DNA of 14,630 bases from Christensenella sp. UBA7707. GTDB lineage: Bacteria > Bacillota > Clostridia > Christensenellales > CAG-138. Under the pieces are notes generated by a model, which ran no database searches, was not told the origin of the DNA, and worked only from the letters and a program-made list of their open reading frames with translations. The stretch is from the NCBI GenBank assembly GCA_002482435.1, contig DLFZ01000004.1:1100-15729 (forward strand), in the 5' to 3' direction. The first letter of the stretch is position 1. Each line of letters starts with the position of its first letter. A program made the translations under genes and the position numbers. Of the stretch, positions 2,201 to 8,224 are shown piece by piece.

Positions 2201-2215
2201 TTGGGTGCTCCTTTC

Positions 2216-2249
2216 AAAAACAAACGCCGCGGGAAACTGTCCCGCGGCG
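2216..2249 (-). terminator. Leader terminator (attenuator) of the ABC-F gene
   Basis: A perfect 10-bp stem, CGCCGCGGGA/TCCCGCGGCG (plus coordinates 2240-2249 and 2225-2234), has a 5-nt loop and is followed on the minus strand by TTTGTTTTT. It ends one base before the GAAAGGAG of the ABC-F gene, so transcription must read through it to express the gene. Confidence 0.85.
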
Positions 2250-2345
2250 TACGGCCGTTGCAATTTTCCGTAATCGGACGGAGTCGGTAAAACAAACACG
2301 CTTGCGCGGTTTGCCTTGAAAGATGCCGTCCGGATCATTTTGTTT

Positions 2346-2363
2346 TTAGAAAAGCAGGAACAT
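2346..2363 (-). CDS. Leader peptide MFLLF upstream of ABC-F gene
   Basis: A five-codon ORF, ATG TTC CTG CTT TTC TAA, has a strong Shine-Dalgarno AAGGAG six bases before its ATG. It lies about 27 bases downstream of the predicted transcription start and ends 7 bases before another in-frame ATG (2338) of the ABC-F frame. Its good ribosome binding site, tiny hydrophobic/aromatic product and place ahead of a terminator suggest a drug-sensing stalling peptide. Peptide function is inference. Confidence 0.7.
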   Translation of the reverse strand: MFLLF

Positions 2364-2396
2364 CGCTTTCTCCTTGTTTGGTTGTATTCTGCAATT

Positions 2397-2425
2397 AAGA
2401 TAGCGGCTTACGGACGAATTGTCAA
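2397..2425 (-). promoter_or_regulatory. Promoter of the ABC-F leader
   Basis: On the minus strand, TTGACA (2420-2425) is followed by a 17-base spacer and TATCTT (2397-2402). This is a near-consensus sigma-A promoter with a predicted start near 2390, just before the leader-peptide Shine-Dalgarno. Confidence 0.85.
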
Positions 2426-5939: not shown

Positions 5940-6052
5940 TGTTCTTTCAAAGAGCGGCACGCGACAGCGAAAAAACGCTTTGACTTAGAAAAGCATCGGC
6001 AGAGCCGGTGTCGGATATGATTTTTAAAGCAAGATTTTCGGGGGGGACAACA

Positions 6053-8224
6053 ATGGCTTTGCATGCAAACGGCAGGGCGTGCTGGAACTGCGGGCATGAA
6101 AACCCTTTGGGGCAGAATGTCTGCCTGCATTGTGGAAGGGAACTTTTTGCGGAGGACGCACCGGTTCACCAGCTTACGCCGGGCACCATTCTCGCGGGCA
6201 AGTACCTTACGGTAAAAACGCTCGGCGAAGGCGGCTTTGGCATTACCTATCTTGGGTACAATCTGCAGCTTGATATCAAGGTTGCCATCAAGGAATACTT
6301 TCCCGAGGGCCTTGCCGCGCGTGATCACACGCATTCCGAGCAGGTGAGCGTTTACGGCGGCGAAAGGGATACGCTTTTTCAGGATGGCGCTCAAAAATTT
6401 ATGCAGGAAGCACGAAGCCTTGCGCGCTTCAGCTCGCTTCCGGGCATTGTTTCCGTAAACGATTTTTTTCATGAAAATGGCACGGCTTATATTGTAATGA
6501 AATACCTTGAGGGCGTTACCCTCAAGGAGTATGTTGAAAAGCGCGGCGGCAAAATTCCGGCAAGCGAAGCGCTTTCTTTGGTACGCCCGGTGGTGGAGTC
6601 CCTTACGCGCGTACATGACGCGGGCATCATACACCGCGACATCAGCCCCGACAACGTCATGATCACCGACGGCGGCGCATACCTCATCGACTTCGGCGCG
6701 GCGCGAAGCTTTGCTTCCGCGCACAGTATGTCGGTTCTTTTAAAATTCGGCTACGCGCCGGAAGAACAATATCGGAGCAAGGGCGAGCAGGGGCCTTGGA
6801 CAGACGTGTATTCCCTTTGCGCTACGCTCTATTGGTGCATCACCGGACACAAACCTCCTGAGGCGCTGGAGCGCCTTGAAGAGGATACCATTTCGCTTCC
6901 CTCTGTACTTGGTGCGACCATTGCACCGGGTGTAGAGCAAGCACTGATGAAGGGTCTAGAGGTTTACCGCAAAAACCGCATCCAGTCGATGCAGGAGCTT
7001 GCAACCTATCTGTACGCGACGGAGAACAACCAAGCGAAAAAAACCGCGGAACCCCGAAATAAGAACGAGACAAAACAAAACGCAGCGAATGCTGCAAAAT
7101 CGCGGCAAAGGCTCCCCGTATGGTTGCCCATCGCGGGCGGAACGGCGCTTGTGGCTGTGCTTTTGTTGGTTTTCCTGCTGGGTGGCAAAAAGGGCTCGCT
7201 ACCCGCCGCACAAACCGAACCGACAGCAAGCGTATCCGCACCTGTTGAGGAGGCAACTCCTATACCCTCCCAAGCGGCGCGTACGCCCGCTGCACAAACG
7301 CCCGCACCCACGGAGGCGCCCGAAAAAACTTATACCCTAGCTGAGGTTGCGCAGGCGAACCGCTTTACGGTTGCATGCGGCAACCGCCATGTGGCCTACA
7401 TCAAGCCAAATGGCACGCTCGGCAGCGCGGGCAGCGACATTTACGGCCAGCGAAGCGGTGCGGATGGGACGAAAAATGTCATCCAGCTGGCGGCGGGTTA
7501 TGCGCACACCGCAATGCTTTTTGACGACGGTACCGTTTCGGCAACGCCGATCAAAAACCCCTCCGGCGAAGAACCCTACGAATATGGTCAGTCCGATGTA
7601 AGCGGTTGGAACCATGTCGTGCAGATCGAAGCGGGCTGGGTGCATACGGTTGGCCTTCTTTCCGACGGCACCGTTGTTGCCACGGGCGACAACGCGCATG
7701 GCCAATGTGACGTTGACACATGGCGAAACGTGCAGGAGGTTGCCGCGGGCGCGTGGAACACCGCCGCCCTCACAACCGACGGACGCGTGCTTGTGGCGGG
7801 TGACAATGAGTATGGCCAATGCGACATTTCGTGGGAAAACGAAAACATTGTGCAAATTGCGGTAGGGCGGCAGTTTGTGGTAGGGCTTCGCGCGGATGGC
7901 ACCGTGATTGCCGCGGGGCGGAACCTCCAAAACCAGCTAGCGGTTTCAGGCTGGAACAACATCGTTGCAATCGCCACGGGCGACTACCACACCATTGGCC
8001 TCAAAAAGGATGGTACGGTAATTACCACCTCGTTTACGGGGAAAAACGCCTATGGGCAGGATCTTACGGGTGACTGGACGGATGTGATCGCCGTTTACGG
8101 CGGCGCGCGTACCACCGTAGGGCTTTGTTTGGACGGCACGCTCCTTGTTGCGGGTCTTGTAGATGAGGATACCTATATGCAAACCGGGAGCATGGCAGAG
8201 AAGGCCGCGATCTTTTTGCCGTAA
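6053..8224 (+). CDS. Zinc-ribbon Ser/Thr protein kinase with TM segment and RCC1-like repeat domain
   Basis: 723 residues. In order: a four-cysteine zinc ribbon (CWNC...CLHC, Cys10/13/24/27); a Hanks-type kinase domain (about 43-330) with glycine loop GEGGFG, VAIKEYFP (Lys80), catalytic HRDISPDN (Asp196), IDFG (Asp213) and APEEQY; an Ala/Lys-rich juxtamembrane stretch; one TM helix (about 356-378); a Pro/Ala/Thr linker; then six to seven RCC1-like repeats (about 435-718) of the form 'GxxHTxGLxxDGTVxAxGxNxxGQ', likely a beta-propeller outside the cell. Active-site residues look complete. A plausible role is a receptor kinase sensing a wall or small ligand; target and signal are unknown. I chose ATG 6053 because a run of seven G's ends 6 bases before it. 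GTG 6008 and ATG 6017 lack a ribosome binding site, and a possible -10 (TATGAT, 6016-6021) lies over them. No partner phosphatase is nearby. Confidence 0.9.
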   Translation: MALHANGRACWNCGHENPLGQNVCLHCGRELFAEDAPVHQLTPGTILAGKYLTVKTLGEGGFGITYLGYNLQLDIKVAIKEYFPEGLAARDHTHSEQVSVYGGERDTLFQDGAQKFMQEARSLARFSSLPGIVSVNDFFHENGTAYIVMKYLEGVTLKEYVEKRGGKIPASEALSLVRPVVESLTRVHDAGIIHRDISPDNVMITDGGAYLIDFGAARSFASAHSMSVLLKFGYAPEEQYRSKGEQGPWTDVYSLCATLYWCITGHKPPEALERLEEDTISLPSVLGATIAPGVEQALMKGLEVYRKNRIQSMQELATYLYATENNQAKKTAEPRNKNETKQNAANAAKSRQRLPVWLPIAGGTALVAVLLLVFLLGGKKGSLPAAQTEPTASVSAPVEEATPIPSQAARTPAAQTPAPTEAPEKTYTLAEVAQANRFTVACGNRHVAYIKPNGTLGSAGSDIYGQRSGADGTKNVIQLAAGYAHTAMLFDDGTVSATPIKNPSGEEPYEYGQSDVSGWNHVVQIEAGWVHTVGLLSDGTVVATGDNAHGQCDVDTWRNVQEVAAGAWNTAALTTDGRVLVAGDNEYGQCDISWENENIVQIAVGRQFVVGLRADGTVIAAGRNLQNQLAVSGWNNIVAIATGDYHTIGLKKDGTVITTSFTGKNAYGQDLTGDWTDVIAVYGGARTTVGLCLDGTLLVAGLVDEDTYMQTGSMAEKAAIFLP

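Follow-up and report, generated by a model that had tools for sequence, protein, structure and literature searches.

Both transcription and translation attenuation have been proposed for the leader of Bacillus subtilis vmlR, which carries the upstream open reading frame (uORF) MIN and follows an anti-antiterminator/antiterminator/terminator logic (PMC9226507). In Clostridioides difficile cplR, translational attenuation by itself holds the gene off when no drug is present (PMC10201436).

We analyzed a stretch of 14,630 nucleotides from Christensenella sp. UBA7707, hereafter the window, in which the short uORF MFLLF and an intrinsic terminator precede an Lsa-like ABC-F gene. The source genome is a 2.07-Mb draft in 252 contigs, 68% complete. 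We think that this is probably a drug-sensing leader of a known general kind, with a wiring apparently unlike that of its relatives. Among the systems compared with it, msrD has the leader peptide MYLIFM, and ermC encodes a methyltransferase and uses a pairing scheme that differs from that of the window.

The vmlR leader and the window share a short uORF, an intrinsic terminator, a structure that hides the Shine-Dalgarno sequence (SD; in the window this structure is predicted) and an ARE ABC-F gene; however, the anti-antiterminator/antiterminator pair of vmlR also frees the SD, whereas in the window we found no such pair and the uORF itself is the predicted partner of the SD (PMC9226507). The cplR leader (uORF MR[I/M]) also has a terminator, and a ribosome on its uORF sets free the SD of its ABC-F gene, much as the model suggests for the window; the cplR SD lies inside the terminator stem, whereas that of the window (2214-2208) lies outside the stem (2250-2224) and has the uORF as predicted partner (PMC10201436). 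LsaA, the nearest named ABC-F family, is likewise preceded by a predicted uORF; compared by peptide alone, its uORF4u consensus MAGN differs from MFLLF (PMC10201436). A short hydrophobic leader peptide, an ABC-F gene and a terminator are common to msrD and the window, but the stalled msrD ribosome itself obstructs the terminator, which in the window is ~95 nt away (PMC10314930). In ermC-type translational attenuation, a ribosome that stalls on the leader makes the SD of the resistance gene accessible, as may also happen in the window (PMC10219788).

Parts of the leader and the ABC-F gene

The leader and the ABC-F gene lie on the minus strand. The parts were read directly and their positions then set by script:

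2425-2397, minus strand: promoter, TTGACA 2425-2420 and TATCTT 2402-2397, spacer 17 nt, 10/12 consensus matches
2374-2370, minus strand: SD AGGAG of the uORF, 6 nt upstream of its ATG, read from the sequence
2363-2346, minus strand: uORF MFLLF (ATG TTC CTG CTT TTC TAA), read from the sequence; predicted partner, the SD and start of the ABC-F gene
2347-2339, minus strand: A-rich flank AAAAACAAA, whose reverse complement is exactly the U-tract 2224-2216
2332-2326, minus strand: 5′ arm CGGACGG of stem P1 (7 bp), from the fold
2317-2289, minus strand: inner hairpin with a GCAA tetraloop, enclosed by P1, from the fold
2281-2275, minus strand: 3′ arm CCGTCCG of P1, from the fold
2269-2261, minus strand: GGAAAATTG, within a block conserved in the sister leader; weak candidate pairing with the terminator loop and 3′ arm
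2250-2224, minus strand: intrinsic terminator hairpin, 11 pairs (9 G-C) and a loop of 5 in the scan, 10 pairs in the fold
2224-2216, minus strand: U-tract TTTGTTTTT, interrupted by G, placed by scan and script
2214-2208, minus strand: SD AAAGGAG of the ABC-F gene, read from the sequence; ATG at 2200
2200-740, minus strand: Lsa-like ABC-F ribosome-protection protein, 486 aa, from profile models and a structure match

An earlier note on this DNA had described a consensus promoter, a five-codon leader ORF with an SD, a 7-bp stem around a GNRA-capped hairpin and a 10-bp GC terminator with a T tract before the SD of the gene, and all four were recovered here. The leader folds with z = -4.43, and 1/200 shuffles folded equally well. 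Simple scans of 2000-2700 on both strands returned three promoter-like sites (1.1 expected) and two terminator-like sites (0.9 expected); taken alone, these scans are weak evidence for the leader parts. Searches with Rfam gave no more than sub-threshold matches in the window, and among ten relatives (sister included) the sole match at gathering score was a tRNA elsewhere in L063, outside the leaders.

Upstream of the uORF, its frame continues without a stop across the promoter (2540-2346, minus strand, 62 codons; 94 codons in the sister). We rejected the idea that MFLLF ends a longer protein: the upstream frames of the two species are dissimilar save for their last residues, and the promoter lies inside. 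An in-frame extension of the ABC-F ORF from the ATG at 2338 was also rejected, as that ATG has no SD and is missing in the sister.

The ABC-F protein passed the general ribosomal-protection model NF000355 (451 bits, cut-off 380) and, at 690.9 bits over the full length, did not reach the cut-off of the Lsa family (NCBIfam NF000167, 750 bits). Among solved structures, Lsa(A) comes closest (7nhk, 432.9 bits; the next scores 184.4), and the alignment with it has a gap of nine residues in the linker region.

Leaders of related genes

Homologous loci were taken from a species genome collection (the best 80 of 153) and from genomes of the same family (24/103 matched, its own included, E up to 1e-100). 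Seven of 111 loci were without a match and were dropped, leaving 104; removal of L109 and L110, which lack the gene start, left 102 upstream regions for leader extraction. With identical upstreams counted once, 95 distinct leaders reached a length of 300 nt or more, those of the window and the sister among them. L111 (short upstream, in-frame stop) was left out of the Ser-Cys counts and the tree; this locus, from genome G015, is a more distant homologue of the same family whose matched stretch is interrupted by a single in-frame TAG.

An SD-preceded short uORF ending in Ser-Cys, such as MRNFSC, MDISC, MIILSC or MINFSCK, was present in 45/95 leaders, against 0.3 expected from shuffled leaders. 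All Ser-Cys leaders with a taxonomic label belong to the Bacillota. Eight further leaders from the order (L112-L119) contained the Ser-Cys uORF in five cases, the end of L119 resembling L058 and possibly being the same sequence. Nineteen of the 95 had uORFs of two to four codons instead (MIR, MRN, MRI and others), many of them in the family of the window, and 29 were left unclassed. The Ser-Cys end is absent from MFLLF in the window and from MFLLS in the sister. In a protein tree of 95 rows, built by a quick method and poorly resolved in its deep order, window and sister share a long branch as one clade (support 100), and leaders with the Ser-Cys label group together more than under shuffling (17 changes versus 31.7). 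Recurrence in relatives had been set beforehand as a check, and the uORF-plus-terminator layout did turn up again, both with the Ser-Cys uORFs and with the MFLLS of the sister.

Two smaller groups were also noticed. In L094, L095, L097, L101, L102 and L104, a long hairpin contains the uORF MIR (MYR in L102) on its 5′ side, and its 3′ arm, GGGTTC, continues directly into TTTTTT(T). The uORF thus belongs to the terminator-like stem, and a ribosome there should break the stem directly. L091, L093 and L099 have very short leaders in which the uORF (MRK, MRI or MRL) lies ~110 nt upstream of the gene and is contained in a single hairpin that ends beside the SD of the gene.

For structure tests we selected 38 relatives with a [Ser/Ala]-Cys uORF by pattern and a terminator of at least 7 pairs in the last 130 nt; this set is not strictly a subset of the 45 Ser-Cys leaders, whose pattern additionally requires an SD. 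Folds of 25 Ser-Cys leaders, inspected by eye, place the uORF in most cases within a long hairpin, its end TTTCTTGC paired with a GCAAGAAA segment; this segment and the sequence downstream from it could also pair with the terminator loop and arms. Duplexes between the uORF and downstream sequence went beyond shuffles in most of the relatives (32/38 with at most 2/200). For leader-to-terminator duplexes, at most 2/200 shuffles did as well in 14/38 relatives and at most 10/200 in 23/38; against the 5′ half and loop of the terminator alone, the corresponding counts were 0/38 and 1/38.

When a 30-nt ribosome footprint was placed on the uORF start, loss of the terminator became cheaper by a median of 9.45 kcal/mol, and by at least 5 in 31/38 relatives. 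The footprint on the last uORF codon gave a median of 7.9 and 30/38. The mean shift of shuffled leaders was -0.18, and 29/38 relatives beat all 40 of their shuffles. Leaders also fitted their own terminator better than those of others (0/5000 permutations, relatedness uncontrolled). The cost of opening the SD dropped by at least 2 in two of the 38 for a start-codon stall and in none for a last-codon stall. In the model, then, the Ser-Cys relatives seem to follow a vmlR-like anti-antiterminator/antiterminator/terminator logic. We rejected the idea that the Ser-Cys codons are a general anti-SD because they are mostly TCT TGC and because SD pairing in the relatives is ordinary (at most 2/200 shuffles in 0/38, at most 10/200 in 7/38).

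One sister leader shares the MFLL peptide

The window has one close relative, L089 (its upstream is identical to that of L009), with 80% protein identity; the next ones stand at 63%. Promoter, uORF, P1 and terminator all recur in this sister. Its promoter, read from the alignment, is TTGACA-17-TATGGT at the aligned place. Its uORF is MFLLS, and uORF plus flank differ from those of the window by one base, the A-rich flank itself being identical. Much of the leader has diverged between the two species, with the uORF block nearly identical. P1 and the inner hairpin are kept as structures, with a changed inner sequence and a P1 of 6 bp in the sister. The letters of the terminator and its loop are nearly identical, the 10-bp stem and CAGTTT being retained.

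Besides the sister (L009), there was no MFLL leader among the best 80 of the 153 loci. The same held among the matches listed for the family genomes, where the 59 genomes outside that listing may include members of the genus without a match, and among the matches in the order (17/396 genomes, E up to 1e-190). A search of 391 class genomes with the uORF pattern, the sister not being shown among them, returned the window and one site with two mismatches in G541, which looks like chance because a reversed control pattern likewise matched once. As far as the sequences go, MFLLF/MFLLS is a lineage-specific peptide on a common layout, one that presumably replaced a Ser-Cys peptide.

The terminator of the window shows no uORF control in the model

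The footprint test gave a different picture in the two species with an MFLL leader. A stall on the uORF shifted the terminator by -1.3 kcal/mol in the window and 0.1 in the sister, and 22/40 and 16/40 shuffles, respectively, gave equally large shifts. We placed 30-nt footprints at every fifth nucleotide between the uORF and the terminator, and under every one of them the terminator kept an advantage of at least 9.6 kcal/mol in the window and at least 6.9 in the sister. Duplex searches against the terminator for an antiterminator, and at the uORF for an anti-antiterminator, found nothing beyond shuffles in either species. P1 as an anti-antiterminator was rejected by footprint folding, and GGAAAATTG, a candidate for weak pairing with the terminator, was not supported as an antiterminator. 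We thus found in the window no mutually exclusive antiterminator that a ribosome on the uORF would free.

The earlier note had proposed that a ribosome on MFLLF would disturb the arm 2326-2332 and make the terminator fail. With this arm alone blocked, the terminator of the window was still 11.6 kcal/mol better. The proposed step is unsupported in the model because no footprint tried makes the terminator lose. The note's probably drug-sensing leader for an Lsa-like ABC-F gene is supported in kind, and its layout recurs; relief of the terminator as its mechanism is not supported.

The uORF region is predicted to lock the SD of the ABC-F gene

In the model, the uORF and its A-rich flank pair with the U-tract, the SD and the start of the ABC-F gene. 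With a footprint on the uORF start, the SD of the window takes 3.0 instead of 8.2 kcal/mol to open, a drop of 5.2 that was reached by 0/200 shuffled leaders. In the sister the drop was 6.5 (for a 13-nt SD stretch) and was reached by 1/200. We then scanned the footprint along the leader every 10 nt, as far as +95 for the window and +85 for the sister. The SD was most open when the leading edge lay 15-35 nt past the first base of the uORF (cost 2.5-3.1 in the window, 0.1-0.8 in the sister), was half-way at +45 (5.3 and 4.0) and cost 6.3-8.4 elsewhere. Among the footprint places tried, the modelled scan shows the uORF to be the one that matters. The drop held at 25 °C and for 24/24 choices of leader length at the 5′ and 3′ sides, 12 in each species; over these choices it was never below 3.0 with the footprint on the start codon or below 2.6 with the footprint on the last codon.

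The duplex between the uORF with its flank and the SD region was reached by 3/200 shuffles in the window and 7/200 in the sister, and most of the U-tract is paired with the flank at a probability near 1 in both. The mean unpaired fraction of the SD was 0.30 in the free window leader and 0.39 and 0.36 in the stalled ones; in the sister it went from 0.26 to 0.41 and 0.84. The fraction hardly rises in the window because the SD finds other partners: it is mostly paired elsewhere when the ribosome is stalled, and still costs ~3 kcal/mol to open.

The helix is partly an A-tract against a U-tract. As a bare duplex with these tracts included, it is modestly unusual (window 35 and 37/1000 shuffles, sister 22 and 53/1000). 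The 18-nt uORF of the window alone pairs with the SD in an ordinary way (281-304/1000 with the uORF shuffled, 93-176 with the SD side shuffled); the sister uORF gave 44-132 and 82-98 of 1000, respectively. The best 18-nt partner of the SD is the uORF in the sister leader and the P1 region in the window leader (-11.8, ahead of the uORF at -9.6).

Interpretation

Taken together, the results in silico are that a uORF ribosome lowers the cost of opening the SD beyond shuffles, hardly moves the unpaired fraction in the window and leaves the terminator unchanged. The reading that we favour, with a probability of about 0.5, is a ribosome-sensing leader in which the uORF region would lock the SD at the level of translation, with the terminator as an additional, independent brake. 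Its parts are present in the sequence; the dependence of the SD cost on the uORF and the independence of the terminator are modelled. This structural evidence is thermodynamic modelling only, with no kinetics, in the two species with an MFLL leader.

Without drug, most transcripts would stop at the terminator (2250-2224). RNA that reads through would be locked by pairing of ~2374-2339, the uORF and its flank, with 2224 to ~2186, which comprises the U-tract, the SD and the start, and the long-range helix would hinder translation of the ABC-F gene. A drug would stall a ribosome on MFLLF, most likely at or near the start codon, and related uORFs point to a pleuromutilin, a lincosamide or a streptogramin A. 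Start-codon stalling by such drugs has been seen by toeprinting on two Streptomyces ABC-F uORFs (PMC12421871). The stalled ribosome would cover the uORF and bar the long-range helix, and the SD would become cheaper to open. We infer that MFLLF is translated, that drugs countered by the ABC-F protein stall it and that transcription terminates prematurely. The terminator would be a second brake, apparently not switched by the uORF; if no ribosome relieves it, a terminator this strong would limit induction. This lineage seems to have exchanged the uORF-controlled antiterminator modelled for many relatives for such an arrangement.

Classical transcription attenuation, in which a ribosome stalled on MFLLF would free an antiterminator that the folding model misses, appears unlikely to us, though it deserves the most careful hearing. 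The layout is like that of relatives with a predicted switch, most of which beat all 40 of their shuffles and whose leaders fit their own terminators, and in both species a conserved GGNAAATTGY is a possible partner for the loop and 3′ arm of the terminator, which are conserved as well. However, the shifts on a uORF stall are matched by many shuffles in the window and the sister, the terminator stays well ahead under all footprints, and neither species has an unusual antiterminator or anti-antiterminator duplex; in the own-terminator ranking the two, which were left out of the permutation test, come 8th and 12th of 40. A composite terminator is improbable: here the flank would be a remote A-tract, reaching over P1 to pair with the U-tract and aid release, and a ribosome on the last codons would cover the flank, weaken termination and open the SD too. 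That the flank is the exact reverse complement of the U-tract, is identical in both species and pairs with most of the tract at near certainty in the model speaks for it, yet A-rich and U-rich tracts readily pair by chance, and a start-codon stall leaves most of the flank uncovered.

It would be a considerable surprise if the terminator merely insulated the gene or lowered constitutive expression and MFLLF were an incidental short ORF. Such a view would account for a peptide found in two species only and for a model without a transcription switch. It sits badly with a Ser-Cys uORF upstream of the terminator region in nearly half of the homologous leaders, with a uORF block nearly identical in two species whose leaders otherwise differ, with the good SD of the uORF and with a ribosome-dependent opening of the gene's SD beyond shuffles in both species. 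Returning to the translational lock, we consider it possible, if on the doubtful side, that the lineage lost the antiterminator together with the Ser-Cys codons, and that the uORF RNA came to be sensor peptide, SD blocker and perhaps, as a remote A-tract, terminator helper.

If the lock is real, the same resistance gene has kept a drug-sensing uORF while its RNA switch moved from transcription to translation. The Ser-Cys leaders appear to form an attenuator class that is widespread among Lsa-like genes, and the literature searched yielded no mention of it. A published uORF4u run on LsaA relatives gave the consensus MAGN, unlike Ser-Cys (PMC10201436). In a search outside supplements and subscription papers, MRNFSC, MRNISC, MRNLSC, MINFSC, MFLLF and MFLLS were not found tied to ABC-F genes, the matching papers being on other subjects by title; among the matches listed for MDISC, the word was used in other senses. 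The nearly fixed TCT TGC codons make it possible to test directly whether selection acts on the peptide or on the RNA.

Other features of the window

Two further reading frames on the plus strand were noted. The frame at 49-483 holds the end of a repeat-like protein, where VPRTGD, followed by a hydrophobic stretch and RKREK, resembles an LPXTG-type sorting signal. A 738-aa ORF at 6008-8224, read by eye, presumably encodes a protein kinase domain followed by RCC1-like repeats.
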